Origin: Alphaproteobacteria bacterium
Lineage (GTDB): Bacteria > Pseudomonadota > Alphaproteobacteria > Ferrovibrionales > Ferrovibrionaceae
DNA length: 64,000 bases
Reading direction: 5' to 3'
Assembly (NCBI GenBank): GCA_017307375.1
Contig: JAFKFH010000018.1
Coordinates: forward strand, 124,001 to 188,000
Under the pieces are notes generated by a model. The model saw nothing but the letters and a program-made list of their open reading frames with translations. It did not search any database and was not told the origin of the DNA. Positions within the stretch are counted from its first letter, which is position 1; the number at the start of each line of letters is the position of its first letter. Positions 30,703 to 61,410 of this stretch are shown here, piece after piece. The position numbers and the translations under genes were made by a program.

Positions 30703-31518
30703 CTAGCGGCTGCCCGGTCCTGAGATGAGAACTTCCCGAACCTTCTTGCCCTGCCCACCAGCCGCCGACCAGGTGGTTTCGAGGCTCTCGAACGAGAACC
30801 GCTTGAAGACGTCTCGAACGCCCTTGGTGTCGTTCAGGGACATGAGAAACCGACCCTGCAGGCCCGCCAGCACCTCGGCCATCCGCTCGTATTCCGCCCG
30901 GCTGAACAGCTCCTTTCCGTAATAGCCTTCAGATCCCCAATACGGCGGATCCAGGAAGAAGAGCGCGTCCGGTCTGTCGTACCTGGTCACGAACTGATCC
31001 CATGGCAGGCACTCGATCACCACGCCCGCCAACCGGCTGTGAACCTCCTCCAAAATCGGCCCAAGCTTGGTTGTATCGAAGCGGGCTGAAAGGCCCGGTG
31101 AAACCCCGAACGATCGGCCCTGAACCTTGCCCGCGTAGGTAGTCCGCTGGAGGTACAGGAACCTGGCGCGGCGCTCCAGGTCGGTCAGGGTTTCGGGATC
31201 GGTGGCCACGAGGCGCTCGAAGTCGGCTCGGGTGGTCAGCTGGAACTTGATCGTATCGAGGAAGGCCGCCAGATGACGCTGCAGGATCCTGAAGAGGGTT
31301 GTCACATCCCGGCTCAGGTCGTTGATCGCCTCGGCCTTGGGCATCACCCGGCGCTTGAGGAATACGCCGCCGAGGCCCACGAACGGCTCGTAATAGGCAG
31401 CGTGCGGTATCTTCTCGATCCTCTCGACGATCCGGCCGGCCAGGTTGCGCTTTCCTCCGATATAGGCGGCCGGGGTACGAACTGGCCGGACCGCCCGGAA
31501 ATGACTCGACTCTTGCAC
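30703..31518 (-). CDS. Phage DNA adenine methylase (Dam family)
   Basis: A 271-residue N6-adenine methyltransferase of the D12/Dam class: SAM-binding 'YYEPFVGLGGVFLKR' (motif I, about residue 45), catalytic 'LFFLDPPYWG' (DPPY, about 180) and 'AAYIGGKRNL' at the start. It is the last gene before the prophage terminus, the place where Mu keeps mom, and probably protects phage DNA from restriction. GTG 31518 is the only start near the conserved region; the frame open to 32028 overlaps another gene and is not coding. Target sequence unknown. Confidence 0.85.
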   Translation of the reverse strand: MQESSHFRAVRPVRTPAAYIGGKRNLAGRIVERIEKIPHAAYYEPFVGLGGVFLKRRVMPKAEAINDLSRDVTTLFRILQRHLAAFLDTIKFQLTTRADFERLVATDPETLTDLERRARFLYLQRTTYAGKVQGRSFGVSPGLSARFDTTKLGPILEEVHSRLAGVVIECLPWDQFVTRYDRPDALFFLDPPYWGSEGYYGKELFSRAEYERMAEVLAGLQGRFLMSLNDTKGVRDVFKRFSFESLETTWSAAGGQGKKVREVLISGPGSR

Positions 31519-31593
31519 TACTCGACATCCATAAATCCCGCGCCGTCGCGACGGTAGGCGGGGCAGCTTAGGCTGTGCGGGTCGCAACCCCGC

Positions 31594-31620
31594 GGTTAGG
31601 GGCGTTCCCGCGCCCCTACC
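31594..31620 (-). terminator. Hairpin between tail genes and methylase
   Basis: GGTTAGGGGCG (31594-31604) and CGCCCCTACC (31611-31620) pair with one bulged base. It lies in the 128-nt gap between the last tail gene and the methylase and may separate the tail operon from the methylase unit. No U-run. Confidence 0.4.
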
Positions 31621-31646
31621 CCCGTCATTCCTGACGAGGGAATTTC

Positions 31647-31934
31647 TCACTGGGCCGCGACCTGGTCGGCGAGCAGCTCGGCCGCGCTGTTCCCCGGCGG
31701 GGTGTAGACGAGCGATCCGGCGGGCGAGTAGTAGGCGCCGCCGCAGCGGACGAACCCCGGCCCCACGGGCAGTGCATTCCCCTCCGCGTCTTCCCCGTCC
31801 GAATAGTAGACCGACATAGCGCCGGCCTCGGGCGCGTCGGGCGTCGGCGCGGTATCGGCCGGCCACATCTCCACGTTCAGAACCGTCTCGATCGCGGCCC
31901 CGACGTGCATGATCTTGATCCAACGATGAGCCAT
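31647..31934 (-). CDS. Small phage protein, unknown
   Basis: A 95-residue protein starting 'MAHRWIKIMHVGAAIETVLNVEMWPAD' (pattern only), with 'MSVYYSDGEDAEG' and 'RCGGAYYSPAGSLVYTPPGNS'. The Gly/Tyr/Pro content suggests a small beta domain. It is the final gene of the tail operon, 12 nt after the glycine-rich tail protein, a position where phages keep tail-fibre chaperones or adhesin accessory proteins. No family recognised. Confidence 0.55.
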   Translation of the reverse strand: MAHRWIKIMHVGAAIETVLNVEMWPADTAPTPDAPEAGAMSVYYSDGEDAEGNALPVGPGFVRCGGAYYSPAGSLVYTPPGNSAAELLADQVAAQ

Positions 31935-31946
31935 CGGCCCCTCCTC

Positions 31947-32777
31947 TTACGATAACTGGATGTAGGCGCCGCCATAGCCCGAGCTGGGATTTCCGCCTGC
32001 GTAAGATCCGGCGCCGCCCCCGCCCCATCCGCCATCAGCCGACACGTTCACCCATGTATTCTGGGTGAAGCACATGCCCTGATTACCCGGGCCGCGGATG
32101 CCGGCATCAGGGGGGTTCCCCGGCTGAATGGTCGGGGTCAGGCCGGGCCAATTGACCCAGCCGCCATAGGCGCCGACGCCGCCACCGCCTGCGGCCCAAA
32201 CGTTGGCCGTCGCGGTGTTGCCGTTCGCTCCGTTGCCACCTGCAGCGAATTCGAGGCCACCCGCGGCACCGCCTCCGCCGCCGTCGTTGCCGCTGCCGCT
32301 GTTGCCCGCCGACCCGGTCTTGCCCGTATTGTTGGCCAGCCCGCCGCTGGCAGGGACGCCGACCGCCCCCGCGTTGGTCGTTGGCGCGACGCCTCCTGGG
32401 GCCGTCAGCGTGAGCTTGGCAGCGGGCCAGGAAATGGTGGTCGTGCCCCCGGCCGCACCAGGCGCCCCGGCCGCGCCGATAGTCCAGCTGATCGTGGTAC
32501 CCCACAGGTCGGGGGTGACGTCATAGACGCCGGAGGCATTCGACCCGCCGGAGGCGCCGCCGCTGGCCAGGTTGGTGCCGTTTCGCGGACCGCCGCCGCC
32601 GCCCACTGCCATGAGGCGCACCTTGCGCGCGCCATACGGCACGGTGGTCGACGACGACAACGTGGAGAGGATCAGGACCGGCGCGATCGTCGCGACCGCG
32701 TCGGCGGTCCTGCCGATGCCGACCAGCTGAGGCAGCATCGGCATGGCGGTCGCCCGCTTGATGACCCGTGGCTGCAT
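31947..32777 (-). CDS. Glycine-rich tail protein, probable receptor-binding tip
   Basis: A 276-residue protein whose central and C-terminal parts (about residues 60-270) are runs of Gly with Ala/Asn/Ser: 'AVGGGGGPRNG', 'GNDGGGGGAAGG', 'AAGGGGVGAYGG', 'GGWGGGGAGSYAGG'. This resembles the polyglycine-sandwich adhesins (T4-like gp38) and other glycine-rich phage tail tips. The N-terminus (1-55) would attach it to the tail. As the last large tail gene it probably decides host binding. Function is inferred from composition and position. Confidence 0.6.
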   Translation of the reverse strand: MQPRVIKRATAMPMLPQLVGIGRTADAVATIAPVLILSTLSSSTTVPYGARKVRLMAVGGGGGPRNGTNLASGGASGGSNASGVYDVTPDLWGTTISWTIGAAGAPGAAGGTTTISWPAAKLTLTAPGGVAPTTNAGAVGVPASGGLANNTGKTGSAGNSGSGNDGGGGGAAGGLEFAAGGNGANGNTATANVWAAGGGGVGAYGGWVNWPGLTPTIQPGNPPDAGIRGPGNQGMCFTQNTWVNVSADGGWGGGGAGSYAGGNPSSGYGGAYIQLS

Positions 32778-35087: not shown

Positions 35088-36667
35088 AGCTCCAGATAGG
35101 CGACGCCGCGCAGCGCGTTGTACTCCATGCCGGTCACCCGGAAGAACTTGCCGCCGGCCAGGCCCCAGCGCGGGTAGATGATGCTGACCACGCGCCCCAG
35201 CTCGACCGCCGTCGCCGTGTCTTCGTCGAGCGCGACCGTCGCCCGGAAACGCTGCCGGCGCCCGAACAGTGCCAGGCGCCGGATGTTCTCGGTCTCGGCC
35301 GCACCTCGATCGAGGAACAGGGTCGCCGGCCCGGCTACGCGGGGACCGGTCGCGTCCTTCTCGTAGCCGTCACCGAACACCAGCTCGGCCGCGCCAGGGT
35401 GCTGCAGCAGGACCGATGCCTGCTCGTAGCTCGCCCAGCGCCAGGCGTTGCGCAGCCAGCCCAGGCGGTCGGGATCGGTGACCGACGCGGCCGGCTCGGC
35501 GATGACGTTCGGATTGTTGTCGAACGCCAGGCGCGAGGCCCAGGCGGGGATCGCAGCCGGGCGCGGTTCCAGCGCCAGCAGCTGCAGTTCGTCGATGCGC
35601 GCGGCATCGCCGCGCTGGAACATGCGGAACGTGGCGACGGGCACGCCGGCCGGGGCATCGAGGCGGGCCAGGCGGAACATGCCGAACCGGTCGAACCCCC
35701 GCCAGCCGCCGATGGTCTCGGCAATCCGGTCGAGCGCCGACGCATAGCTGGTGTCGTCGTTGACGTAGATCCCCAGCTCGGCCGGCTGCAGCGCGTCGAC
35801 CAACGCGATATCGGCGGCGCTGATCGTGGCGAGCGTCGCGACGCCCGAGGCCAGGACCAGGCGCTTGATGATCTGCGCGGCAGTCCGGTCGGCCACCGAG
35901 GCGCCTTCGACCACGTCGGCCGTCACGGTGCCGACCGGCTCGCTACCCGCCCTGGCATAGCCGCCGACCAGACAGGCACGGTACTTGCCCGCAGCCGGCG
36001 CCGTCGCGATCATCTCGGCGACCGAGCCATAGTCGGGCAACTCGCGTTCCCAGGCCGCGCCGTTCGCATAGAAGCCGGGCCAGTCGCCCAGCGCGCCGTC
36101 GTGCGCCTGGAAGATCGGCATCTTCGCTACGCGCATCGGCGCGATGTTTCGGACCTTCCCCCAGCAGCGCGGCTTGCGCTGCCCCTTGATATCCGCAGGC
36201 AGCCCTTCGACGCCGAGCGGCCCGCCGTTGGTCCCCGCATACTTGCTCGGGCAGACCGGCTTGGCGAACAGCTGCTCGCGGTCGCGCAGCCGGATCGAGA
36301 ACTGGGTACGGGTCGACGTCGGTTGTTCGGCGACGCCGGCCAGCAGCGGCGAGAACGCGGCGTAGGGTGCGCGATCGTCGCCGACCAGCACGCGGAAGGG
36401 CTGGCCGGTCCAGCCGGCATCGAGCAGCGCATCGAGCGCGCCATCGTCGTTGCGCACCTCGATCCCGCCGCCGCCGACGTCGCTGCCGCCGCCGATCCGG
36501 CCCGCGCCGAAGATGTCCCTGCGATAGCTCGCCGCCTGGATCAGCCGGGCATCATAGGGGCCGGCAACGCTCGGGTGGTTGTAGCCTGCGCCCGAGGCCC
36601 AGCGGATCGGCTGCAGCGTGCCGAGCGCGTCCACCGCGACCGCGGTTTCGAAGAGGTAGATCCTCAT
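35078..36667 (-). CDS. Minor tail / tail-tip protein
   Basis: A 529-residue protein encoded right after the tape measure, overlapping it by ATGA at 36664-36667, which fixes the start; the frame open to 36961 lies inside the tape-measure gene. It begins 'MRIYLFETAVAVD' and contains 'RLRDREQLFAKPVCP', 'KYAGTNGGPLG' and 'CWGKVRNIAPM'. The hub-like mixed alpha/beta content and position suggest a tail-tip or baseplate-hub component of a siphovirus. No specific family is certain. Confidence 0.7.
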   Translation of the reverse strand: MRIYLFETAVAVDALGTLQPIRWASGAGYNHPSVAGPYDARLIQAASYRRDIFGAGRIGGGSDVGGGGIEVRNDDGALDALLDAGWTGQPFRVLVGDDRAPYAAFSPLLAGVAEQPTSTRTQFSIRLRDREQLFAKPVCPSKYAGTNGGPLGVEGLPADIKGQRKPRCWGKVRNIAPMRVAKMPIFQAHDGALGDWPGFYANGAAWERELPDYGSVAEMIATAPAAGKYRACLVGGYARAGSEPVGTVTADVVEGASVADRTAAQIIKRLVLASGVATLATISAADIALVDALQPAELGIYVNDDTSYASALDRIAETIGGWRGFDRFGMFRLARLDAPAGVPVATFRMFQRGDAARIDELQLLALEPRPAAIPAWASRLAFDNNPNVIAEPAASVTDPDRLGWLRNAWRWASYEQASVLLQHPGAAELVFGDGYEKDATGPRVAGPATLFLDRGAAETENIRRLALFGRRQRFRATVALDEDTATAVELGRVVSIIYPRWGLAGGKFFRVTGMEYNALRGVAYLELWG

Positions 36668-39600
36668 GCGGCCACCGTCATGTAGCCGGTCCACTCGGCC
36701 GAACGGACCAGGGTCGAGAGCGTGCGGATCAGGGTGGTGTCGCTGTCGTGCTGGACGCTGGCGACGTCGCCGATCAGGCCCAGCAGCGCCTGCAGCAGTT
36801 CGTTCGATTGGCCGGTCTGGCGCAGCTGCTCGGCCAGCAGCACCGCCAGGCGCCCGTCGCCGCCGGCCTGGCGCATGCCGCGGGTCTGCTCGGCGTTGTA
36901 GATCCGGGCCGGCCCGCCGAAATACGCGTATTCCGGGCCGCGCTCGCCGACCAGCGCCCAACCGCCTGCATGATCGCCGCCGGACGCGAAGGCCGGCGTC
37001 GGCGGCGCCATCACCGTCACCGATACGATCGGCGCCGGCATCGTCCGCATTGCCGCCGCCAGGTCGCCGATCGCGGTTACGGAAGCTTCGGTCGCCTTCG
37101 CCGTCCTGCCCTGGTCGGCCGCGATCGCGCTGGACTTCAGCAGCACGGCCGCCGTGTCCCTGGCCGTGTTGTCGTTGGCCAGCTTCGAGCCCGCCAGGTC
37201 GACCGCCATCGCCTTCTGCTTGTCGAGCTGGTCGCTCGCATATTTGGCGATCTTCTCGGTCTCGCTGGCCGTGGTCTTCGCGGCGGTCAAGGCCGGCTCG
37301 GCCGTGCTGGCCACCGTGGCGATCGGCCGCTCGATATTGCCCAGCGACGACGCCATGCCGCCCAGCACGACCGCCTGGGCGGCGAGCGTGTCGAGCTGCC
37401 GTTGCGCCGTCGACACCTGGCCCTCCGCGCCCAGCTGCAGCGCCGCAAGGCCCGCGTCGACCTGGGCGAAGATGGCCGCGTACTCCTGGTTGCCGCCATA
37501 GGCAGCCTGGGCCAGCTCCAGATAGGTCTGGGCCTTGCCCGTCACCTCGGCGATGGCCGTCTTGTCGCCGGTTGCAGCCTTCGCCGAGACCGCTTCGAAC
37601 TGGCTTTTGGCATCGGCGAGTTTCGCCATGCCTTCGAGCGGCGACAGCTGGCTGGTCCGCAGATCGTCGCGGAACTTCTTCACGTCCTCGGCGAACTTCT
37701 TGAAGTTCTCGCGGGCGTCGGCGCTGGCGGCTGCAGCCTGCTGGATCGCCAGCGCCTGCGTCTCCATCGCCTGGGTCTCGATCATGCGCGCCCGCACCGT
37801 CGCATCGGTCACGGTCGCCAGTTCCTGCTGTTGCTGGATTTCCAGCAGCCGGCGGTCGATCGCGTCGGCGGCGGCGACGTTCTGCGCCCCGCCTACGGTG
37901 CGCAGGATCGAGGCGGCGGCCTGGCCGCGCCGCTGTTCCAGCGCGATCTGCTGATTGTAGACGTCCATGGCCCGCCGATAGGCGACCACCGCATCTTCGA
38001 CCGCGGCGGTGCGCTGGATCTCCGCGCGCTCGGCCTCGGTGGTGGCATCTTCCAGGGCACGGGCCTGCCGGATGCGGCGCTGATCGTCTTCGGCCTGCTG
38101 CCGGCTGATCAGGCCCATCTCCGCGTACATGTCCTGACGCGACAGGGCCTGGTCTTGCCCCATGCGCCGGTCGGCCTTGGCGCGCGTCTTGGCGACCGCC
38201 GCGTTCTCGGCCGCATTGGTCTTCTCGATATCGCGTGCTTCGGCCTCGGTGGTCGCATCCTCGACCGCGCGCCGCTGCCGGGCCGCACGCTGGCGGTCTT
38301 CCAATTCACGCTGCGACAGGTCGCCGGTCTGGACGGCATAGCCGTCGCGGGTCAGCGCCTGGTCTTCGGCCGAGCGCTTGTCCGCCTTCTTCCGGGCCGC
38401 CGCGACCGCCTCTTCCTCCTTGGTCTGCGTCTTGCGGATCTGGTCGAGCTGGGATGCCGTTGCCCCGCTGTTCTGCGCGTCCACCAGTTCCTGGCGCTGC
38501 GCCTCGGCCCGCGCCTTGTCCTCGGCCTCCCGCGTCCGGCGCGGGTCAATGACGACGGCCGCATTCATCGCTCGCTGGTCGAGTGCTGCCCCGAAGCGCT
38601 TGTCCTGCTCGGCCCAGGCATCTTCCTGCCGCTTGCTGCGCCAGGCGATGAAGCTTTCGGCCTCCTGCTTGGCGCTGTCGGTACCGAGCTGGCCGGCCTC
38701 GGCGCGAAGCTGATCGTCCTGCGCCTTCATCTGCCGCCGCGCCAGGCCGCGCGGATCTTCGACCGCCGCTCGCTGGTCCTGCAGGTTCTGCGACCAGTCC
38801 TTCTGCATCTGCTGCAGGCGTGCGGTCAGCTTGGTCGAGATGGTCGCCGCCGCCTCCGAGGCCGAGACGCCCGCGGCTTCGAGCACGGGGCCAAGCTCGG
38901 CGAACTGGGCCTTGATCGCGGCGACGTCGGCGGCGAAGCCGGTCAGCGGCTTCTTCGCATCGTCGGTCACCGTCTCCAGGCTGGCCAGCGCCTGCTGCCT
39001 GGCGGCGGTCTTCGCGTCCTTCGCTTCCTGGCTGTCGGCGCCGTAGATCGCTTCGGCGTTGCCGATGTACTCCTTGATGCCCTTGGCCTGGGCCTTCGCG
39101 GCGTCCTGGGCCGCGTATTTGAGCGACAGCGCCTGGGCGTCGCGCGTGCCGACGCCGGCCGCCGCCAATGCCTTCGAGCGGTCGAAGCCCTGGGCGAAGT
39201 CGAGATACTTGGTCAGTTGCTCGGTGCTGTCGGCCTTCAGCGCGCCCGAGGCCAGCCGGTCCAGTGCCTTCTGCAGTCCGGCATTGTCGCTCTTGAACAG
39301 CGAACCGCTGTCGGTCGGGCTGGCCGCCGAGCTTTGCGCGGTGCGCCAGTCGCCGTAGTTTTTGTTGTAGGTCTCACGGTCGATCGCCCGGCCGTCGCGG
39401 TCGTAATACGACATGCCGTTGTCGCGGTCGAACCAGGTCGTGATGCCCTGCGCGCGCTGATAGGCAAACTCGCTCATGCCGGCGTCGCTGGCATTGGCGC
39501 CACCCGACTTCGAGCGATCGGTGGTGAACCATCGCTTGGCCAGATCCTCGGCGTTCGCCGCGCCGCCGTACATAGTGCCGATCGTCAGCAGGCCGTTATA

Positions 39601-42600
39601 GGCACCGTTGGCGTTGATGGTATCCTTGTTGACGGCGAAGGAGAGGTCGTACCGGTCCATCGCCGCGTTCATCCAGGTGGCGAACTTGGCCATTTCCTGG
39701 CGATCGGCGGCGTTCGAATAGCCGTCGAGACCGGCCTGGTGAACGTCCGAGGCGGAGAACCGCCCATCCGTCCCGATCTGTCCGCCGGCATAGCCGCGCG
39801 GGCTCTGCTTGTCGCCCCCGAACATGCCGCCGACCAGGTTGCCGAGCATGCCGCCGACCATCGTGCCGATACCCGGCAGGATCATCGTCCCGACTGCCGC
39901 GCCGAGACCGCCGCCGATCGCCTGGCCGTAGTTGCCCGACAGCAGACCGGGCAGGACCGAGCCAGCGATACCGAGGATGTTGGAGAACGACGAGAAGCCG
40001 GCCATGGCGCTGCCGCCGTTGAGCAGGCCGGGGGCCGCCGCCGTCGCCTGGATCATCTCGGCCGCGGTCGCGCTGGTTGCCCCCGACACCGCGTTAGGCA
40101 CGCCCCACCCTATATTGCGCATCGCCCAGGCGTCGATCGCGGGGGAAAGGCTCGACCCGTTGGCGCTGAAAAGGCGGTCGATGCTGCCGAGCGAGAAGCC
40201 ACCCCCACGATCGGGGCTGGCAACCGAGGAACTGGCCGAGTTCGCGCCGGCATAGCCTAGGCTCACCAGCCACGACTGCGGTGCGCCGACCGCAGAGAGG
40301 ACGTTACCGATCACCGGCTTGAAGACGAAGGCGGTGGCGATCTGGCTGGCAGTGCTCAGCAGGAAGGACTTCAGCACCTGGCCGAACGAGAAACCCGCGC
40401 GCTTCGACTTGTCGAACGCGGCTTCAAAGGCGCTCGAAAGCGCGTCCTGGATGCCTTCGGCGGCGCGCGTCCAGATCCGGCCGGTTTCCTCGGCCGCGCG
40501 CTGCTGCTGCTCGGTCGCGACCTTGATGCTGGCCCGCGCGTCGGCGATCTGCAGCAGTTTCTGGCGCTCCTCCTCGCCCAGCCCCGGAAACTGCTGCTGG
40601 ATGCGCAGCTTCTCGCGCATCAGGGCCAACTCGCGCTCCCGCACGTCCGGCAGCGCCTGGGCCAGTTCCAGTTCCCGGCGCTGGATCGCCAGATCGGCCT
40701 CGGCGTCGACAATCTCGCGCCTGGCGCGGATCGTCTCGTTCAGCCGCTCTTCGTCGCGCAGCTGGCCGGTCAGCGTATCGCGCCGGGCCTGGGCTGCCTG
40801 CAGCGCCGCTTCGTCGCCGGTGGCGCGCGCCGCCTCTACATCGGCATAGGAGCGCGCGAGCGCGTCGACCTGGATCTTGGTGTCCGCATAGGCGGCCGAC
40901 GTGCCCTTGGCCGCCTCCGCCACCAGGCCGAGGCGGTACAGCTCGGCCTCGTTCGCGCCGATGGATTTCGCCGCCGCCTCGCCGGCCGCCTTCGCGCCTT
41001 CGTCGAGCAACTGGCGGGCGCGGGCCGCGACGTCGACCTGCTTGTTGTCGAGCTGCTCCAGGCTGGCCTGCCGCGCCGCGTCGGCCTTCAGCCCCTCGCG
41101 CAGCGACTTCTGGTACGAGGCGATTACCGCATCGGTGGCCGTGACCTGGACGAAGCTGGCCTGGTTGCGGTCGCGGATCGCAGCGGCGTCGGCCGCGGTC
41201 GCCTCGGCGACGCGCAGCCTGATCAGGCGCTCCCGCTCGGCGCCCGTGATCCCCTTTTCGTCGGCCTCGGCCTTTGCCTCGGCGGCGGCACGCGCCGCGT
41301 CGCGCGCGTTCTTCTCGGTGCCATAGACGCTCGCCAGCTTGGCGACCGAGGCGGCGACGTCGTCGACTTCCTTCTTCTGGCGCTCGTTCTCGTTCGCCGC
41401 CTCGGCATCCTTTGCCGAGGCCCTGGCCGCCTCGACCTTGCGCAACTGCGCTTCCAGGCTCATCAGTGCCGCTTCTTCGACGGCCGCGTACTGCGCCCGC
41501 CGCTGCGGGTCGATCGCGTTCGAGGCATCGTCGGGGCCGGGCTGGCGCAGGCGCTCCAGGCGGGCGCGGCGCTGGGCGATCTGCCCTTCCAGGTCGGTCA
41601 CCTCGGCCGCCGCACCGCCCTTGGCGCCGCCACGATCGAGGAAATCGGCGATCTTGCCCACCGCCGACGACAGCAGCTCGATCGTCGCGATCACCGGCCG
41701 GCTGGTGGCGATGGCGTCGACGAAGCGCGACCAGGCCCGGCCGAGATTGAGCCAGGCCCGCTCGGCCTGGCTCATCGATCCTGCCTGCAGGCCGGTGAAG
41801 CGGCGATCGAGCGCGGCATAGGCGATTTCCAGGGCGCTGGCGCGTTCGCCGTGCTCGAGCATCGTGCGGATCTGCGACCGCTCGGACGCCGTCAGGAAAT
41901 TGACCGCGTTATCGAACTGCTTCAGCGCCGAATAACCGCCGCTCAGCGCATCCGAAAGCTTCTTCGCCGCGTCGGCCGCCGAATTGCCGAGGCCGGCGCC
42001 CACGTCGGCCGACAGCCCGGCAATCCGGCCGCGATCCGACTGGCTCAGCAGCTGGTTGCGCTGCAGGTTGGCGACGGTGCCGCGCGCCTCTTCCTTGGAG
42101 ACGCCGGCATCCCGCATGGTCTCGACCATCTGGTGCAGCTGCTGGGTCGAGACGAAGGCGTCCTGGCCCATGCCCTTCAGCACGGTCGAGAAGGCGCGGG
42201 TCTCGGCCGCCATGTCGGAGATGCGGCTGATCGCGAAGCCGGCAACAACCAGCACTGCACCGATACCCGTACCGGCCACGGCAGCGCTTAGGGGGATGGC
42301 CCTGAGCGCGCTGCCGACCAAGCTGAATGCCTTGCTGATCCCGCCGACCGCGTCGGCCGCCTGCGGTCCCTGCTGCAGCAGCACCTGCAGCGGAGGCATG
42401 CCGAGCATCAGCGACTGCGCGGCATCGCTCGCCTGCATCGCCAGCTGGCGCTGCTGGTAGGCTGCCAGGCCCGAGGTCCGGGCCAGGTTGTCGTTGGCGC
42501 CGGCCGTCTTCGCCGCCTGCTTGCCAGCCCGGTCCAGTTCGCCGGCCAGCATGCCCGACAGCTGGGCATGACGTTCGGCCGTCAAATGGCCGGCCTTCAA

Positions 42601-42987
42601 GGCGCGGTCGAGCTGGGTTTGCGCCTCCGACGTTCGCTGAAACGCGGCGGCAACCGGGTCGATCGCCGCGACCAGGCGCTGCAGGTCGGCGATTTCCGAC
42701 CTGGTCGCCTCGGCGACCGCCTGGGCGCCAGCCCGCGCTGCCGCCGCCTGCGCGGTCAGGGCCGTGGCGGTCGCATCGGCGGCGCCGGCCATGCCCCGCA
42801 TGTCGCCGGCCGCCGCGCGGGCGGCATCGCCGGCCGAGACCATGCCCTGGGCGGCCGACCTGGTCGCCGCCGAGGCATCGCTGGCCGAAGCCTTGACACC
42901 CTCGATGTCGCCGCCGATCGCGCGCAGCCCGGCGCGGGCCTGCGACGCATCGGCGGATACCTCGATCTTGAGCGCCAGGTTGGTCAA
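36664..42987 (-). CDS. Tail length tape measure protein, 2,107 residues
   Basis: A very long helical protein that fixes tail length. The N-terminus ('LALKIEVSADASQARAGLRAIGGDI') and following 250 residues match the prophage tape-measure class, with a hydrophobic segment near residue 236 and a second Gly-rich one at about 1015-1055. Residues about 1480-1660 hold imperfect 70-residue repeats with 'DQAL' and 'EDATTEAE'. The C-terminus has the tape-measure signature 'GGDHAGGWALVGERGPE'. Its start overlaps the T frame of the chaperone pair. At about 1.5 angstrom per residue the tail would be roughly 300 nm. Confidence 0.92.
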   Translation of the reverse strand: MTNLALKIEVSADASQARAGLRAIGGDIEGVKASASDASAATRSAAQGMVSAGDAARAAAGDMRGMAGAADATATALTAQAAAARAGAQAVAEATRSEIADLQRLVAAIDPVAAAFQRTSEAQTQLDRALKAGHLTAERHAQLSGMLAGELDRAGKQAAKTAGANDNLARTSGLAAYQQRQLAMQASDAAQSLMLGMPPLQVLLQQGPQAADAVGGISKAFSLVGSALRAIPLSAAVAGTGIGAVLVVAGFAISRISDMAAETRAFSTVLKGMGQDAFVSTQQLHQMVETMRDAGVSKEEARGTVANLQRNQLLSQSDRGRIAGLSADVGAGLGNSAADAAKKLSDALSGGYSALKQFDNAVNFLTASERSQIRTMLEHGERASALEIAYAALDRRFTGLQAGSMSQAERAWLNLGRAWSRFVDAIATSRPVIATIELLSSAVGKIADFLDRGGAKGGAAAEVTDLEGQIAQRRARLERLRQPGPDDASNAIDPQRRAQYAAVEEAALMSLEAQLRKVEAARASAKDAEAANENERQKKEVDDVAASVAKLASVYGTEKNARDAARAAAEAKAEADEKGITGAERERLIRLRVAEATAADAAAIRDRNQASFVQVTATDAVIASYQKSLREGLKADAARQASLEQLDNKQVDVAARARQLLDEGAKAAGEAAAKSIGANEAELYRLGLVAEAAKGTSAAYADTKIQVDALARSYADVEAARATGDEAALQAAQARRDTLTGQLRDEERLNETIRARREIVDAEADLAIQRRELELAQALPDVRERELALMREKLRIQQQFPGLGEEERQKLLQIADARASIKVATEQQQRAAEETGRIWTRAAEGIQDALSSAFEAAFDKSKRAGFSFGQVLKSFLLSTASQIATAFVFKPVIGNVLSAVGAPQSWLVSLGYAGANSASSSVASPDRGGGFSLGSIDRLFSANGSSLSPAIDAWAMRNIGWGVPNAVSGATSATAAEMIQATAAAPGLLNGGSAMAGFSSFSNILGIAGSVLPGLLSGNYGQAIGGGLGAAVGTMILPGIGTMVGGMLGNLVGGMFGGDKQSPRGYAGGQIGTDGRFSASDVHQAGLDGYSNAADRQEMAKFATWMNAAMDRYDLSFAVNKDTINANGAYNGLLTIGTMYGGAANAEDLAKRWFTTDRSKSGGANASDAGMSEFAYQRAQGITTWFDRDNGMSYYDRDGRAIDRETYNKNYGDWRTAQSSAASPTDSGSLFKSDNAGLQKALDRLASGALKADSTEQLTKYLDFAQGFDRSKALAAAGVGTRDAQALSLKYAAQDAAKAQAKGIKEYIGNAEAIYGADSQEAKDAKTAARQQALASLETVTDDAKKPLTGFAADVAAIKAQFAELGPVLEAAGVSASEAAATISTKLTARLQQMQKDWSQNLQDQRAAVEDPRGLARRQMKAQDDQLRAEAGQLGTDSAKQEAESFIAWRSKRQEDAWAEQDKRFGAALDQRAMNAAVVIDPRRTREAEDKARAEAQRQELVDAQNSGATASQLDQIRKTQTKEEEAVAAARKKADKRSAEDQALTRDGYAVQTGDLSQRELEDRQRAARQRRAVEDATTEAEARDIEKTNAAENAAVAKTRAKADRRMGQDQALSRQDMYAEMGLISRQQAEDDQRRIRQARALEDATTEAERAEIQRTAAVEDAVVAYRRAMDVYNQQIALEQRRGQAAASILRTVGGAQNVAAADAIDRRLLEIQQQQELATVTDATVRARMIETQAMETQALAIQQAAAASADARENFKKFAEDVKKFRDDLRTSQLSPLEGMAKLADAKSQFEAVSAKAATGDKTAIAEVTGKAQTYLELAQAAYGGNQEYAAIFAQVDAGLAALQLGAEGQVSTAQRQLDTLAAQAVVLGGMASSLGNIERPIATVASTAEPALTAAKTTASETEKIAKYASDQLDKQKAMAVDLAGSKLANDNTARDTAAVLLKSSAIAADQGRTAKATEASVTAIGDLAAAMRTMPAPIVSVTVMAPPTPAFASGGDHAGGWALVGERGPEYAYFGGPARIYNAEQTRGMRQAGGDGRLAVLLAEQLRQTGQSNELLQALLGLIGDVASVQHDSDTTLIRTLSTLVRSAEWTGYMTVAA

Positions 42988-43352
42988 CGGTCCTTGTCCT
43001 CTTCGGCCTGGCCCTGCCGGGCCTTCGACTTGGCCTGCCGATCCTTACGGATCGCGTCGAACTCGTGACATGCGACCCCGGCCATATGACGCATCAGCCG
43101 GTAGCGGTGACGGTTGAGACGGATGCCTTCGAGGCGGCCGATGGTCGCGACCTTGTCCCAGTCCAGCCCTTGCGGGATCGGCTCCATGCCCGGGATGTAG
43201 GACCAGGCTTCGCCGCACCTCACGAAGAGCTGCCAGGCTTTCCAGTGTTCGGGCCAGATCCCGATATCCTGATCGGCTTTGAGACGGTCGGTCTCGGCAT
43301 CGAACGCGGCCAGTTCTTGGGCGGCAGCCTCTGGCCCGATGAGCGCTTCCAT
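42984..43352 (-). CDS. Tail assembly chaperone, T part (DUF1799-like)
   Basis: The 122 residues from ATG 43352 resemble DUF1799 phage proteins: 'WPEHWKAWQLFVRC', 'PQGLDWDKVATIGRLEGI'. The frame stays open further upstream, through 'KDDLANREQERADKVRQLED', to the slippery site at 43448-43454, and no ribosome site precedes 43352. It is therefore probably made mainly as the C-terminal half of a G-T fusion of 276 residues by -1 frameshifting from the upstream gene, as in lambda. Its stop overlaps the tape-measure start. Confidence 0.7.
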   Translation of the reverse strand: MEALIGPEAAAQELAAFDAETDRLKADQDIGIWPEHWKAWQLFVRCGEAWSYIPGMEPIPQGLDWDKVATIGRLEGIRLNRHRYRLMRHMAGVACHEFDAIRKDRQAKSKARQGQAEEDKDR

Positions 43353-43444
43353 GTCTTCGAGCTGGCGGACCTTGTCCGCCCGCTCCTGCTCGCGGTTCGC
43401 GAGGTCATCTTTCGAACCGCGAGCCCAGCGCCGGGCTGCCGCTT

Positions 43445-43813
43445 CTAGTTTCCCAGTTTGGCCTTGCCCTCGTTGACCATCTGCCAGAAGTGGTCATAGA
43501 GCGCGTTCACGGCGCACGGATCTTCGAGCAACACGTCCTTCGCATCCGCGTCGAAGGCCACGGCCTGCCCCTGCTCGTCGACCATGCCTTCCACATTGAC
43601 CAGGATCAGCCGCAACCAGGCCACCCGGCCGTTGGCGGGTTCGCCCTCGGCAGTGAGGCGGGCCTGTTCGGCCAGGACCGCGTCGAACTCGCTGCGCGGC
43701 CGGCGCTCGTAGGTGACGGTGAGCGCCGACTTCGAGACCTTGTCGCCGTCGACCGGCTCCCGGATGTTGACCAGCGACTTGAATGTTTTGCCGCGCGAAA
43801 GGACGTAAGCCAT
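43445..43813 (-). CDS. Tail assembly chaperone, G part
   Basis: A 122-residue protein ('AYVLSRGKTFKSLVNIREPVD', 'YERRPRSEFDAVLAEQARL', 'EDPCAVNALYDHFW') that follows the tail-tube gene and precedes the DUF1799 frame and tape measure. This is the exact place of gpG-type chaperones that coat the tape measure before tail polymerisation. Its stop codon comes directly after GGGAAAC, so a share of ribosomes should shift -1 into the T frame. Assignment rests on context, size and the slippery site. Confidence 0.75.
   Translation of the reverse strand: MAYVLSRGKTFKSLVNIREPVDGDKVSKSALTVTYERRPRSEFDAVLAEQARLTAEGEPANGRVAWLRLILVNVEGMVDEQGQAVAFDADAKDVLLEDPCAVNALYDHFWQMVNEGKAKLGN
43448..43454 (-). other. 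Programmed -1 frameshift site GGGAAAC
   Basis: In the G frame the codons read ctG-GGA-AAC-TAG, a canonical X-XXY-YYZ heptamer immediately followed by the stop. Slipping back one base gives GGG-AAA-CTA-GAA and enters the T frame, which is open from here to 42984. Lambda uses GGGAAAG at the same place. Confidence 0.8.
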
Positions 43814-43856: not shown

Positions 43857-45104
43857 TCAGGCGACGTCGAGAATGATTTCGTCGTCGCCCGCGTCGGGCT
43901 GAGGTTCGAACGGCATGTCGTAAAAGACGTCGCCGTCCTGGTCCTGGTACTTGGGCCGCAGCAGCTGGCCGCGCGTGCCGCTGAGCATCACGATGTTGCC
44001 GGCCGAGCGGCCGTGCCGCAGGTAGAAGGGGACCATCGTGTGGTTGGTCGCGTAGGCGTAGGGGTTGAAGTCGCCGAGGTTCAAAGCGGCGACCTTGATC
44101 GAGCCGCTGGGCTTGCGGTCGTCGATCGTCACCTCTTCCTGGTTGACGCGGTTCTTGTACTTGACGTCGTTGGCCAGGTTCAGCTGCAGCGACTGCAGGA
44201 TCATGTCGCGGCCGGCCAGCCGGAAATCCGGCGTGTTGCGGTCGGACACTTCGAGCGGGTCGACCCAGCCCGCCCGGTTGAACGCGCCCGGCGCCAGGTC
44301 GACCGGCTCGGCATAGAGGCCGGTGTACTCGAAGGAGAACATCGGGATCTGCTGGACCGTGAACTCGACGCCCACGGTGCCGCGGGATCCGCGGATCCGG
44401 TGCAGGATGCCGTCGACGAAGGTGAAGAACACCACCGAGGCGAAGCTGGACGAGACCGGCCGGTAGCGGACACGCGGCGAGCGCAGCTCGATCGTGAAGA
44501 CGTCGCCGAGGACGAACGCGGTCCCGATCGCCGCAGGCGTGATGGTCGCACCATTGGCCAGGGCAAAGGCCATCCCGGTGGTCATGACCACGCCGGCTGT
44601 ATTGACCGCCGCCAGGCCCAGCCCGGCCGGTGACGAGACGGTGAACGTCGCGACGCCTGACGCGCCGGCTGTGGTGCAGGTCAGGGTGACGACACGATCG
44701 ACCGCGCCGGTATAGGGCGCGGTCGCGGCATAGGTGAACCGGCCCACCGCCGTCTCGGCCGGGACCGCCGCGGCGGCCGTCGTGCCCGCCGCCATCACGG
44801 TCGGCGACAGGCCGCAGCCCTGCAGCAGCGGATCGTAGAGCGGCGCGGTGCCGGCAGCGCCCGAGCCTGCGATTTCCACCTTGAAGGTGAGCTTGGTGTG
44901 GTTGCCGGTGAGCATCTTGCCCTGGTTGCCATAGGCCGGCTGGACCAGGCCGCGCTCGACCGTCTGGCCGTCGATCGGCGTCAGGTCGACGTCCTTCAGC
45001 AGGATCATGTTCGAGGCCGACGTGGGGGTGGCGGCGGGGTCGGCATAGGTCGGCTCGATCATGCCGAGGACCATCCGCTTGGTCATGCGCTTGGTGATGG
45101 CCAT
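43857..45104 (-). CDS. Major tail tube protein
   Basis: A 415-residue protein, beta-rich, starting 'AITKRMTKRMVLGMIEPTYADPA' (phage tail-tube family pattern) and containing 'LTFKVEIAGSGAAGTAPLYDPLLQGCG' typical of the N-terminal tube domain. A Thr/Ala-rich insertion (about residues 105-200) looks like an added surface domain. The C-terminal half returns to tube-like strands ('VEFTVQQIPMFSFEYTG'). It precedes the chaperone pair and tape measure, the standard siphovirus order. Confidence 0.8.
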   Translation of the reverse strand: MAITKRMTKRMVLGMIEPTYADPAATPTSASNMILLKDVDLTPIDGQTVERGLVQPAYGNQGKMLTGNHTKLTFKVEIAGSGAAGTAPLYDPLLQGCGLSPTVMAAGTTAAAAVPAETAVGRFTYAATAPYTGAVDRVVTLTCTTAGASGVATFTVSSPAGLGLAAVNTAGVVMTTGMAFALANGATITPAAIGTAFVLGDVFTIELRSPRVRYRPVSSSFASVVFFTFVDGILHRIRGSRGTVGVEFTVQQIPMFSFEYTGLYAEPVDLAPGAFNRAGWVDPLEVSDRNTPDFRLAGRDMILQSLQLNLANDVKYKNRVNQEEVTIDDRKPSGSIKVAALNLGDFNPYAYATNHTMVPFYLRHGRSAGNIVMLSGTRGQLLRPKYQDQDGDVFYDMPFEPQPDAGDDEIILDVA

Positions 45105-54584: not shown

Positions 54585-55142
54585 TCAAAGCCCCAGGTGG
54601 CGAAGGGCGCGTTCGGCAAATTCGGCGGCCAGCACATTGCCATCGGCCCGCTCGGCCGCCGCCATCTCTTCCAGCTTCCTCTTCTGCTCGGCTTCCCACT
54701 CGCGCTTCTTGCGGATCTCCACGTCGAGCGACGTCCGAGCGGCGATGCCGATGTTCTTCTGGATCTCCGACAGCGACTTGATGTCCTTGACGTCGGGAAC
54801 CTCGCCGCGGGCCATCTTGGCGATGATCTTCGAGACGAAGATGTCCAGTGCTTCGAGGTTCGCGCGCCGGACCCGATCGTCATCCCCGTCGCCCAGCTCG
54901 GCCGCCAGGGTATCGTTGACGCCGCGAACCTCGCGCATCATCGAAATGAAGGCATCGTACTCCTGGGTGTGCCGCCCGATCGTCGCCCGCGACGGCATGC
55001 GATCCTCGGAGAGGCCGAGGACGTTCAGCTCCTCGCGCATCGCCGCCATGATGTCGTCGATCGAGGCGCCTTGCTCGCGCAGTTCGGTGATCAGCGCCTT
55101 GATGCGCCTGGGCAGCTTGTCGATCTTCGTCGGGCGCGCCAT
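54585..55142 (-). CDS. Mu gp27-like protein (DUF3486), putative small terminase
   Basis: A 185-residue protein of the DUF3486 family: 'MARPTKIDKLPRRIKALITELREQG' at the start, then a helix-turn-helix-like 'SRATIGRHTQEYDAFI' and a long helical C-terminus ending 'RALRHLGL'. In Mu-like phages it is encoded next to the terminase and is thought to be the small terminase subunit that recognises phage DNA. The frame open to 55232 is not conserved. Confidence 0.85.
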   Translation of the reverse strand: MARPTKIDKLPRRIKALITELREQGASIDDIMAAMREELNVLGLSEDRMPSRATIGRHTQEYDAFISMMREVRGVNDTLAAELGDGDDDRVRRANLEALDIFVSKIIAKMARGEVPDVKDIKSLSEIQKNIGIAARTSLDVEIRKKREWEAEQKRKLEEMAAAERADGNVLAAEFAERALRHLGL

Positions 55143-55146
55143 CGGA

Positions 55147-55449
55147 TCAGCCGACGATCTGCGGGCGCTTGATGCCTTCGACCGTGACGCGGCCCTTCGC
55201 GCAGTCGATGCCGCGGTCGGTGATGCGGGCAACCATGACCGTTTCCTGGAACATCGACGTGGTGATCAGGGCCGTGCTGCGCAGGAATTCGAGGTCCTCG
55301 CGCAGCGTCTCCTTGGTCTCGCGGATGTGGCCGTCCAGGTGCAGCGCCGTCAGCAGCGACCGCTCGTTGGCGTGGCCGTCGAGATCCAGCAACGTCAGCA
55401 GCAGCATGCGGCGACGCTCGGCCTTCAGATGATCGGCGAAGCTGGTCAT
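55147..55449 (-). CDS. Mu gp26-like protein
   Basis: A 100-residue helical protein with 'DHLKAERRRMLLLTLLDLDG', 'NERSLLTALHLDGH' and 'TDRGIDCAKGRVTVEGIKRP', the pattern of a winged-helix fold seen in Mu gp26 relatives. In Mu this gene lies between gp25 and the small terminase, exactly as here. Probably regulatory or morphogenetic; function not established. Confidence 0.8.
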   Translation of the reverse strand: MTSFADHLKAERRRMLLLTLLDLDGHANERSLLTALHLDGHIRETKETLREDLEFLRSTALITTSMFQETVMVARITDRGIDCAKGRVTVEGIKRPQIVG

Positions 55450-55452
55450 GGG

Positions 55453-55878
55453 TCAACGCGCCTTCAGCAGATAGTCTTCGATCCGGGTGACTGCACCTTC
55501 CATGCGCGCCTGGCTTTGAGCCAGGTGCGTGTGGCCCGACTTCAACTCGGCTAAGGTGGTGGTGATCTTCGCCACGTCGTCCTTACTCGGAAGGTGCTCC
55601 ATCTCGGCCTGGATCACCTTCAAATCGGCTTCGAGCGAGACCACCTTCTCGCTCAATTCGTCGAAGCGGTTATCGAGCGCCTGTACAGCCTTGGTGCTGT
55701 CTTCGCTCGTGGCGAGCTGCTTGGCCATCAGATCCATGCGGGCCTGCATCACTTCGAAGTCGGCGCGGGCGGTGAAGATCCCACGTAGCCGCCAAAGCAG
55801 TGCCCCGAACACGAGGCTGCTGACCCCGAGGATCAGTCCGAAGCCGTCATTGGCGATCTTGATAATTTCCTGGAGCAT
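55453..55878 (-). CDS. Mu gp25-like protein (DUF2730)
   Basis: A 141-residue membrane-anchored coiled-coil protein: one hydrophobic helix (about residues 11-30, 'FGLILGVSSLVFGALLW'), then a long coiled coil ('LDNRFDELSEKVVSLEADLKVIQAEM'). Fits DUF2730, found in Mu-like lysis modules and thought to be a spanin-like or accessory lysis protein. Starts at the stop of the holin gene (TGATG overlap). Confidence 0.82.
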   Translation of the reverse strand: MLQEIIKIANDGFGLILGVSSLVFGALLWRLRGIFTARADFEVMQARMDLMAKQLATSEDSTKAVQALDNRFDELSEKVVSLEADLKVIQAEMEHLPSKDDVAKITTTLAELKSGHTHLAQSQARMEGAVTRIEDYLLKAR

Positions 55879-56537
55879 CAGGGCTTCTTCCGGGTGAAGA
55901 TGTTCTTGATCGAGCCGACCGCGTTGCCCAACTGGGCGATCAGGTCGACGCCGGCATCGTCCTCGCCCCGGCCGGTCCGCTTCGAAACTTCGCGCAGCAG
56001 GATGTAGGCCAGAACGATGGTGGTGGCCGGCCAGACGGCGCTATCGAACAGGTAGCGATAGACCGAGCGCTCGCCGAACAGTGCCGGCCCGAGCAGCGGC
56101 AAGGTCTTCTCGCTGCCGAACCAGGCGGCAACCCCGTTCAAGAGGATCGTGAAGGCGTCGATCGCCAGGACGTAGGCCGGGACGAGCATGACGTGGCTCA
56201 TCCGCAGCACGACGCGCGGGCGCGTCGTCATCCGCAGATAGGCGACCTCGGCGGCGGTCTCGGGCGGCAGCGCGTGCAGCAGCTCGGGCGTCACCTCGCC
56301 CTGCTCGTTGGCCAGGCGCTCGGTTTGCGCACGGTAGCTCTCGATTTCCACCTGCATCGCGGCGATCCACGCCGCCTGCTGGTCGGGCGGGGCCGCCTCG
56401 ATCGCCGTCTGCAGCTCGGCCGGGGTCGATGCGGTCGACGGCTTGCCCGTCACCTGCTCGTAGACCCGCTTGCCGGCCGAAAACAGGTCGGCGACGGCCG
56501 AGACGGCACCGATGACGCCCGCGATCACCGGCAGCAT
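55878..56537 (-). CDS. Holin, 3-TM type
   Basis: A 219-residue membrane protein. It has an N-terminal hydrophobic helix (residues 2-18, 'LPVIAGVIGAVSAVADLF'), a Gln/Glu helical region, and two more hydrophobic segments (about 118-140 and 160-185), ending in a basic tail 'IKNIFTRKKP'. This resembles the three-TM holins known from gene transfer agents and alphaproteobacterial phages. Encoded directly after the L,D-transpeptidase-like gene, so it probably forms the lysis pore. Confidence 0.75.
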   Translation of the reverse strand: MLPVIAGVIGAVSAVADLFSAGKRVYEQVTGKPSTASTPAELQTAIEAAPPDQQAAWIAAMQVEIESYRAQTERLANEQGEVTPELLHALPPETAAEVAYLRMTTRPRVVLRMSHVMLVPAYVLAIDAFTILLNGVAAWFGSEKTLPLLGPALFGERSVYRYLFDSAVWPATTIVLAYILLREVSKRTGRGEDDAGVDLIAQLGNAVGSIKNIFTRKKP

Positions 56538-56995
56538 CAGGGCACCTCGGCGATCGTGACGCGGACCAGGTCACCGCCGACGCGGCGGGCAACGGCCGCC
56601 ATGTCGCGGTCGAGCAGGCGCAGGCAGCCGTAGGTCGGCACCAGGCGCCCGTCACCACGCCCGCCATGCACCCACAGCCCCGCGCGCTCAGCCATGGCGG
56701 CGAGCGCCGGGCCGGCCTCGCCGATCAGCTCGATGCCGTAGAGGCCGAGGCGCGGATGCGGGGGCTGGAACGTCGTCAGCCGGGCCGGCGCGTAGCGGCC
56801 CAGCGGCGTATCGCCGTAGGGTCGAACCGGATTGCGGGAAGGGTTGCCAACCTTGGCGGCCTGCTGCCCATCGGCCTTGCCGAGGCAGGCGCCGACCAGG
56901 ACGGGCGACCCTGCCGGGTCGATCAGCCGGAATTCACCGGGCTGGGCGCGGTCGTGGCGCAGATGGGCGGTCAGTAGCCAGGGAGTGTCGCTCAT
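56537..56995 (-). CDS. L,D-transpeptidase-like protein, probable lysis enzyme
   Basis: A 152-residue protein with a YkuD-type catalytic core 'LWVHGGRGDGRLVPTYGCLRL' (shown as His...Cys-Leu-Arg; His about residue 110, Cys about 124). 'PYGDTPLGRYAPARL' precedes it, as in this family. It is in the place where Mu has its endolysin, next to the holin, and could therefore attack or remodel peptidoglycan. A classic muramidase is not seen nearby. ATG 56995 is preferred over GTG 57004, because AAGG lies 8 nt upstream of it. Confidence 0.75.
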   Translation of the reverse strand: MSDTPWLLTAHLRHDRAQPGEFRLIDPAGSPVLVGACLGKADGQQAAKVGNPSRNPVRPYGDTPLGRYAPARLTTFQPPHPRLGLYGIELIGEAGPALAAMAERAGLWVHGGRGDGRLVPTYGCLRLLDRDMAAVARRVGGDLVRVTIAEVP

Positions 56996-57026
56996 GCACG
57001 CCACCTTGCCCGGTGACGCGCGCCCC

Positions 57027-57050
57027 GATCATGTGACCGGGGCCATGTGG
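57027..57050 (-). promoter_or_regulatory. Late-promoter motif, lysis operon copy (Plys-like)
   Basis: On the minus strand CCACATGGCCCCGGTCACATGATC. It begins 1 nt after the stop of the Mor/C activator gene and ends 31 nt before the first lysis gene. Near-identical to the motif at 49835-49858. The position equals Mu Plys, which follows the C gene. Confidence 0.55.
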
Positions 57051-57051
57051 A

Positions 57052-57489
57052 TCAGACAGGCGACGCGAACAGATCGAGCTGCGGGCTGGCTATCGGGGCG
57101 GCCGGCTCATCGGCACCGCCTGCGGTGCCGCCGCTCTCGGCCGCGGCGATCATGCGCTGGACGGTGCGCTGCGCGCAACGCAGTCTCGCGGCGATCCGGG
57201 CGCCCGTCCAGCCCTTCGACGCCAGCCACAGTACCATTGCGCGACGCGAAAGCGGCAGCTGCAGATAGTCGCCGCCGTATATCGGCGCAAGCGCCTCGGC
57301 CAGATCCTGATCGATAAGCTGGCAGATCGAACTGTCCGGCGCAACGATGTGCGGGACGTAGGTCGGCAGACCGCCCAGCGTCTCCACCAGGCGCATCGCC
57401 CGCTCAAGCCCGATATGGTCCGCCAGCTCTCGGACCTGGGGCCGCAGCGCCTCGCGGACCATCGCCTCGGTGATGTTGCGCTCGGCCAT
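57052..57489 (-). CDS. Mor/C-family transcription activator
   Basis: A 145-residue protein with the Mor-family layout: 'LADHIGLERAMRLVETLGGLPTYVP' (dimerisation helices), 'QDLAEALAPIYGGDYLQLPLSRRAM' (the beta-strand and Gly segment), and a helix-turn-helix 'GWTGARIAARLRCAQRTVQRMI'. A hydrophilic tail follows. Mu Mor and C switch on middle and late genes. The downstream 24-bp motif is the likely target. It follows the DUF2786 gene by 1 nt. Confidence 0.85.
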   Translation of the reverse strand: MAERNITEAMVREALRPQVRELADHIGLERAMRLVETLGGLPTYVPHIVAPDSSICQLIDQDLAEALAPIYGGDYLQLPLSRRAMVLWLASKGWTGARIAARLRCAQRTVQRMIAAAESGGTAGGADEPAAPIASPQLDLFASPV

Positions 57490-57490
57490 G

Positions 57491-58198: not shown

Positions 58199-58653
58199 GA
58201 CGTTGCCCCCGCCTGCGCACGGCGACGCATCGCCTTCAGCCCCTCGATCATCTTGTTCGCGCCGCTGGGCGTGAGCGCGCCCAACTCCTGGCCCGACATG
58301 CGCCGGATATAGGCATCGAGGGCGGTTTCAGACCGGTCGCGCACCACGCCCATATCCGCCAGTTCGATCCACAGGCCCCGCATCATCCGGTGCTGATCGT
58401 CGTCGGCGTAGCGCGAAGCCTGGGGGCCGGCGCTGGGCCGGCCGCCCTGCTTGCGGACCTTGTCGAGCGTGCGGGCCAGCTCGCGCGCCGACATGGCCCG
58501 CAGGCTGTCCTTTCCGATCTCCCGCTGCAGCCAGGCGCGCCAGGTGTCATCCTCGGCCAGGCCGGCCACCTGGCGGCGGCTCACCTGGATCGCCTGGATC
58601 ACGCGCTTGTTGCTCTCGGGCGAGCCTGCGGCAGCGAAGCGCGGCTTAGCCAT
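58195..58653 (-). CDS. Mu gp16-like regulator (DUF1018)
   Basis: A 152-residue helical protein of the DUF1018 family: 'KRVIQAIQVSRRQVAGLAEDDTWRAWLQREIGKDSLRAMSARELARTLDKVRKQGGRPS' (in pieces), then 'QHRMMRGLWIELADMGVV' and a final helix. In Mu the gp16 gene lies in the semi-essential early region upstream of mor. Thought to be regulatory. Overlaps the 58646-59029 gene by 8 nt. Confidence 0.85.
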   Translation of the reverse strand: MAKPRFAAAGSPESNKRVIQAIQVSRRQVAGLAEDDTWRAWLQREIGKDSLRAMSARELARTLDKVRKQGGRPSAGPQASRYADDDQHRMMRGLWIELADMGVVRDRSETALDAYIRRMSGQELGALTPSGANKMIEGLKAMRRRAQAGATS

Positions 58654-59692: not shown

Positions 59693-59735
59693 GGCCGGCC
59701 TCGTGCGTGCACGCGCGATAGCAAGGTCTGTGCCA

Positions 59736-61399: not shown

Positions 61400-61410
61400 G
61401 TGCCGGCCTC

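Follow-up and report, generated by a model that had tools for sequence, protein, structure and literature searches.

A predicted -1 ribosomal frameshift at a GGGAAAC heptamer abutting the stop codon of the tail chaperone gene in a Mu-like prophage

Introduction

It is well known that, by means of a slip-back signal, a single gene of a tailed phage can yield a tail-building helper protein in two versions. Here we asked whether this holds for a Mu-like prophage of an Alphaproteobacteria bacterium (Ferrovibrionaceae; assembly GCA_017307375.1), in which a short gene ends on GGGAAAC and a TAG stop codon and a second open reading frame (ORF) begins in the -1 frame. The window analyzed was the stretch of 64,000 nt from position 124,001 to 188,000 of contig JAFKFH010000018.1; all coordinates below are those of this window, and the prophage lies on its minus strand. 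The first gene is called G and the -1 frame T, after the G and T genes of phage lambda. An earlier sequence-only reading had proposed that the heptamer produces a G-T fusion. From the arrangement of the sequence, its conservation, the homology of both parts and an excess of RNA structure, we predict that this Mu-like prophage, whose tail is of the siphovirus type, very probably uses standard -1 programmed ribosomal frameshifting in its tail-chaperone gene.

Results

Arrangement of G, T and the slippery heptamer

The minus strand at the end of G reads ...GCC AAA CTG GGA AAC TAG AAG CGG..., so that GGGAAAC lies in the phase X_XXY_YYZ (G GGA AAC) and touches the TAG; owing to this phase, both codons are able to re-pair at -1. 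Counted from the heptamer, the -1 frame stays open over 156 codons, up to a stop that ends at 42984, and the predicted fusion would have 122 + 154 = 276 amino acids over a span of 830 nt. The listed frame of the tape-measure gene overlaps the T stop by 4 nt (Table 1). Two overlapping ORFs, the second in the -1 frame, are thus found just upstream of a tape-measure gene, which is the arrangement that marks systems of the lambda G/GT kind. When the minus-strand letters and the ORFs were read again, the sequence-only reading proved right in its coordinates, phase and fusion length, in placing a GGGAAAC -1 slippery site (43454 to 43448) directly before the stop, and in describing the -1 frame as open to 42984, with DUF1799 inside.

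Table 1. Features of the chaperone locus and its neighbors (window coordinates)
Feature	Position	Strand	Remarks
G-like tail assembly chaperone ORF	43445..43813	-	122 aa, zero frame; ATG at 43813; stop TAG 43447..43445
Slippery heptamer G_GGA_AAC	43448..43454	-	abuts zero-frame TAG
T-like -1 frame, DUF1799	42984..43454	-	156 codons from heptamer; predicted C-terminal part of 276-aa fusion
Tape-measure protein ORF	36664..42987	-	2107 codons; TMP_2 E 1.1e-23; directly downstream of T
415-aa ORF, major tail protein position	43857..45104	-	directly upstream of G; no family match
12-bp perfect hairpin, candidate stimulator	43388..43424	-	arms 43424..43413 and 43399..43388, 13-nt loop; weaker pairs extend towards heptamer
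AAGG, possible weak Shine-Dalgarno-like stimulator	43462..43465	-	11 nt upstream of heptamer; without family-wide support

The bare heptamer was not unusual, GGGAAAC occurring five times in the window against 5.14 expected. Its placement was: the window has 306 stop-to-stop ORFs with 100 codons or more, and in only 2 of them does any X_XXY_YYZ heptamer touch the stop; G alone joined such a heptamer to a long open -1 frame (156 codons, vs 14 for the other ORF). The placement of the heptamer, unlike the heptamer itself, is therefore beyond chance. In ten chosen ORFs of the prophage GGA was rare among glycine codons (17/515), so its use in the heptamer runs counter to local usage; AAC was the usual asparagine codon there (119/144).

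Conservation of the heptamer among DUF1799 loci

Relatives were sought in four ways, with the DUF1799 profile (PF08809) in genomes of the phylum and in genomes of the class, with T proteins in viral contigs, and in a phages collection; fused one-frame G-T forms were not part of these searches. DUF1799 was matched in 30 of the 398 genomes of the phylum and in 18 of the 385 genomes of the class. Nine of the 39 DUF1799 matches of the phylum search came without a locus and were left out of the survey, and the phages collection contributed seven records, S-CBS3 among them, chosen from listings of 842 (40 shown), 19 and 2. Also left out were L002-L004 and L006-L011 (the same sites under other numbers), L047 (T1, taken over a region that lacks the tail genes), L048 and L101-L106; L048 and L104-L106 were inspected outside the survey. 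This gave 89 loci, and after 11 with an identical T had been dropped, 78 distinct ones remained. A site was accepted when an in-phase heptamer was preceded by at least 60 open zero-frame codons or by the contig edge, with preference for the AAAAAAC, GGGAAAC, AAAAAAG or GGGAAAG nearest the stop.

An in-phase heptamer was present in all 78 distinct loci (AAAAAAC in 45, GGGAAAC in 30, and AAAAAAG, GGGAAAG and AAAAAAT in one each), and it touched the zero-frame stop in 70 of them. In the other eight the stop lay 3, 9, 18, 21, 27, 54, 96 and 105 nt away; the assignment of the heptamer is less sure in these, above all in L013, L040 and L086. Conservation of the heptamer in relatives, which the sequence-only reading had offered as a check on its claim, was thus borne out, 75 of the 78 sites being AAAAAAC or GGGAAAC. 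The viral loci, and most of the phage ones, had been retrieved with T queries starting at the heptamer's own residues, and only the 46 profile-found loci, the window apart, are free of that bias, their DUF1799 match beginning downstream of the heptamer; among them the heptamer was in phase in 46/46 and touched the stop in 39/46. As a control, the surveyed loci held 1124 further ORFs with 100 codons or more, and 5 of these carried a stop-touching heptamer, one of the five being the true site of L082. At 50% T identity the 78 loci formed 49 groups, in 41 of which all members touched the stop.

These are distant relatives. No close relatives of the window G and T were found in viral contigs, nor of G in genome contigs, where G only was searched; T had no match in the phages collection, and G matched there only S-CBS3, under two accessions. 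G was matched in two other genomes of the 398 in the phylum and T in four others of the 385 in the class. Since close relatives were not found, the site was judged on distant ones. The nearest surveyed T was only 30% identical to that of the window, which indicates that the frameshift signal has outlived most of the protein sequence. Alignments of G and of T were made from the window and 18 of 35 listed loci, all picked from the stop-touching ones; in these 19, the last residue of G was always Asn, and the -1 frame always began with K-K-L or G-K-L.

In one group of 17 members (L032, L034, L050-L059, L061, L062, L065, L067 and L068) GGGAAAC occurred 14 times and AAAAAAC three times, which indicates exchange between G and A in the first half of the heptamer, with AAC kept throughout. 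The touching stop was TGA in 56 of 70 cases vs 88 of 150 control ORFs, and the following bases had no clear bias; as the loci are related and kinship was uncorrected, nothing was drawn from the stop identity or the following base. In one genome (G207:C26:258876-259264) two DUF1799 matches lay next to each other on the same strand, which may reflect duplication or breakage of the T part.

The survey also bears on the idea that T is a separate gene, begun at its own start, whether through translational coupling or through reinitiation past the TAG, the heptamer being incidental. The first ATG, GTG or TTG of the window's -1 frame is an ATG at 43352, codon 35 from the heptamer, and it lies upstream of DUF1799. 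Among the 72 surveyed loci with a recognizable W motif, 67 had a T-frame ATG, GTG or TTG before that motif, and 19 had a start with a Shine-Dalgarno (SD)-like 4-mer at least 15 aa before it; T is also annotated as a separate gene in several records. Such a gene would need no heptamer, whereas the heptamer was in phase at every distinct locus in spite of the low T identity. In the two T alignments, the conserved stretch opened with the heptamer's own residues (K/G-K-L, then AA), which lie 34 codons before the window ATG, and none of AGGA, GGAG, GAGG and AAGG was found at the usual distance upstream of ATG 43352. A separate T gene is therefore very improbable. The sequence-only reading had denied T a ribosome site of its own, and for ATG 43352 this held; the pattern that it had named as refuting, a separate T ribosome site together with loss of the heptamer, was not seen in the 78 loci, the SD-like T starts in 19/72 having the heptamer kept beside them.

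Slippage of the polymerase rather than the ribosome, which would make a fusion mRNA on a repetitive run, could be argued from the AAAAAAC sites (45/78), since these hold an A run and A/T runs are described as able to cause polymerase slippage (PMC3711429). The GGGAAAC sites, the window included, have no run longer than three, and conservation of the codon phase of the heptamer also argues against a transcriptional origin, to which we give almost no credence. The window, for its part, is a prophage within a bacterial contig, and one might suppose that a single G-T gene has been split by a frameshift mutation during decay, with the overlap accidental. The same two-frame arrangement is, however, found in the named phages S-CBS3, Smarc2, HK639, CUB19, Aval, VarioGold, Ioannina, RcapMu, RcWaterboi and Silvergun, and long head and tail ORFs with family matches flank G and T, which makes decay a negligible prospect.

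Identity of the two proteins

DUF1799 was matched at residues 60-117 of the -1 frame (E 6.2e-9, 36.4 bits, cut-off 26). Against a profile of 18 other T proteins, T scored 64.6 bits, the best of 1978 scored shuffles reaching 10.4; G scored 62 bits against its 18 relatives, the best of 1904 scored shuffles reaching 11.8. Among the 19 aligned G proteins, Phage_TAC_4 was matched in 7, phrog_569 in 17 and phrog_313 ('Tail assembly chaperone') in 8. The window G itself was not matched by Phage_TAC_4 (PF08748); its group includes members that are. By sequence comparison, G is homologous to phage tail assembly chaperones of the Phage_TAC_4/phrog_569/phrog_313 group. The placement of G and T as in lambda, claimed by the sequence-only reading, agrees with this homology and with the position of both directly before the TMP_2 tape-measure ORF.

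An AlphaFold2 model of G was obtained with a mean predicted local distance difference test score (pLDDT) of 89. When it was compared with 994 chains, the top row was 2ob9_A, the HK97 tail assembly chaperone, as a weak match (Z 4.4, 80 aligned, root-mean-square deviation 4.5). Foldseek gave no match of the G model in the PDB at E<=0.001; against viral models, the named rows included a 'Tape measure chaperone' of Serratia phage Scapp (E 6.5e-4). The modeled likeness of G to tail assembly chaperones is suggestive only. The T model (pLDDT 86) had no match by fold in the PDB at E<=0.001, and a search of the PDB by sequence gave no meaningful relative for the G or the T alignment. The second row for the G model was 5ir0, ORF19 of a phage-inducible chromosomal island (PICI)-like element of Vibrio cholerae (Z 3.9, weak), conceivably a satellite protein that imitates a tail chaperone.

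A naming matter was met along the way. In PHROGs, the families of the two chaperone parts (phrog_680 and phrog_569) are both called 'tail length tape measure protein', and S-CBS3 has this name on its T part, HK639 on its G part and Silvergun on both (records NC_015465, NC_016158 and OZ038342); the label appears to have spread from PHROGs into the phage records.

RNA structure downstream of the heptamer

The RNA just after the heptamer folded more stably than its shuffles, with a mean z of -1.24 in the 49 group representatives. The adjoining stretch at +60 gave -0.49, and the five control offsets gave -0.28 at +110, -0.13 at +160 and 0.03 to 0.17 upstream; paired tests of the stretch just after the heptamer against controls gave p = 6e-4 (+110), 1e-5 (-60) and 2e-5 (-110). 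Averaged over the 78 loci, pairing rose in two blocks, at about 6-20 and 26-40 nt past the heptamer, and fell in between, a pattern as expected of a stem-loop. In the window, the 80 nt after the heptamer folded at -38.7 kcal/mol (z -2.53), five of 200 shuffles being as stable, and they hold the hairpin of Table 1 as the candidate stimulator.

Mu-like setting and neighboring genes

GemA, DUF3164 and Mu gp27-type small terminase genes lie upstream (window 54585-62481), and an ORF with a Mu-transpos_C domain was found 1.8 kb beyond the window (G000:C36:189776-189955); the label 'Mu-like' of the sequence-only reading was upheld by these. PF02914 was matched neither here nor in the control genomes. 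A single Phage_sheath_1 match was obtained in the genome and lies on a different contig, in keeping with a tail that is non-contractile; the early and packaging genes of Mu-like type are here joined to a siphovirus-type tail module. By its position, the 415-aa ORF is probably the major tail protein. At the far end of the tail region a DNA methyltransferase gene (30703-32028, minus strand; phrog_56, E 2.3e-65) adjoins a possible tail fibre assembly gene.

Discussion

From these data we infer the slippage itself, its rate, a stimulatory role of the stop codon and the hairpin, and the chaperone action. Most ribosomes would read the 122-aa G and terminate at the TAG. In a minority, the tRNA-Gly and tRNA-Asn paired with GGA AAC would slip back by one base to GGG AAA, aided by the adjoining stop codon and the downstream hairpin, and reading would resume with CTA GAA GCG... 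to give a 276-aa G-T with the junction ...AKLGN-LEAAAR..., ending at 42984. Under the established model, tandem slippage takes place after AAC has been decoded, which yields ...AKLGN-LEAAAR; a slip before the decoding of AAC would put Lys in place of Asn, and fusions with such a Lys should make up no more than a minor product. The junction peptide '...GKLEAAAR' of the sequence-only reading, which follows from a naive -1 reading, is thus probably wrong. By analogy with lambda gpG and gpGT, the tape-measure protein would be coated by many G and a few G-T molecules, and the tail-tube subunit would be recruited by the 'T' part with DUF1799; by extension from lambda, the frameshift may be essential.

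Several observations weigh against this account. A T start at ATG 43352 would keep DUF1799; with this taken into consideration, separate initiation was still judged unlikely. The window G alone had no match in Pfam, PHROGs or NCBIfam. The strong core of the hairpin starts 23 nt after the heptamer, a distance that exceeds the usual heptamer-to-hairpin spacing, and weaker pairs begin at 11 nt; the first 50-nt stretch of the window alone had a z of 0.08, only the 80-nt stretch standing out (z -3.27). An upstream SD stimulator was considered as well and looked enriched when all loci were counted (33/77, vs 4-20 of 76-77 at controls). The excess was gone when one locus per group was taken (14/49, vs 1-16 of 48-49 at upstream control offsets), and since it was lost once related loci had been removed, an upstream stimulator is not claimed.

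Within the frameshift account, the position of the stop invites a further idea, which we regard as possible and rather unlikely: in the DUF1799 chaperone family, the zero-frame stop could be a working part of the frameshift signal, with the ratio of G to G-T set by the supply of release factor. A stop directly after the heptamer, as in 70 of the 78 loci, would hold the ribosome with its A site on the stop and, for the most part, an Asn tRNA in its P site, and termination would then compete with post-translocation slippage. The locus gives a firm, conserved example of DUF1799 as the 'T' part of a frameshifted tail chaperone, and the heptamer's position against the stop, shared across the family, offers a natural series in which to test what a stop codon contributes to -1 slippage. 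It is otherwise ordinary phage biology, of a kind well known in tailed phages.

Comparison with known systems

In lambda, as in the window, a chaperone gene precedes the tape-measure gene and a -1 frameshift near its end adds a T domain, with the fusion made at low frequency. The lambda heptamer is GGGAAAG, unlike the GGGAAAC of the window. The T of the window belongs to the DUF1799 family, and the likeness to lambda is one of arrangement. The roles of gpG and gpGT at the tape measure have been described (PMC5009743).

Other described systems share single traits with the window. In Burkholderia phage KL1 (NC_018278; gp18/gp19) GGGAAAC stands immediately upstream of the chaperone's TGA stop, as the genome description puts it (PMC3483164), while, unlike in the window, another protein gene lies between T and the tape measure; the record gives a joined coding sequence (CDS). 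For gp12/gp13 of Acinetobacter phage Loki, a heptamer directly at the stop, with a different first half, is predicted in its description (PMC5313236). Phage Mu and the Mu-like Pseudomonas phage PaMx73 also have frameshifted tail assembly genes; in the account of PMC4378225, however, the frameshift of Mu is of the -2 type, and that of PaMx73 is predicted at TTTTTTC, 43 codons before the stop. Among the features used by PRFect, its description includes the distance from slippery site to stop (PMC10885494). No general rule that places the stop right behind the heptamer in the DUF1799 family was found in the few open papers examined, which hold remarks on single phages only; the word 'frameshift' does not occur in the main text of the one paper found to name DUF1799.

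Annotation of such pairs is uneven. Of ten named phage records examined at such a pair, one joins the parts, Smarc2, as a joined CDS 'pre-tape measure frameshift protein', and one more, RcapMu, only notes a potential frameshift. RcZahn, unlike most phages of the same Rhodobacter phage paper, is described there as having no clear sequences for the usual frameshift (PMC8601537).

The closest known case is that of RcapMu (NC_016165), a Mu-like siphophage of Rhodobacter capsulatus, whose record flags, as a misc_feature, a 'potential -1 frameshift' at the GGGAAAC-TGA ahead of the DUF1799 gene; RcWaterboi has the same site. In RcapMu49/RcapMu50, as in the window, GGGAAAC abuts the stop, the -1 frame is open (for 119 codons) and holds DUF1799, and the tape-measure gene comes next. 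T is 27% identical to that of the window over 102 aligned columns (E 0.001, weak) and G 25% over 85 (E 8e-7). The RcapMu site differs in having TGA in place of TAG, and in an AGGAGG upstream of it. A frameshift at this site is thus not a novelty for Mu-like phages, as RcapMu is already so annotated, and given the precedents of RcapMu, KL1, Loki, PaMx73 and Smarc2, the window site belongs to a known kind of system.

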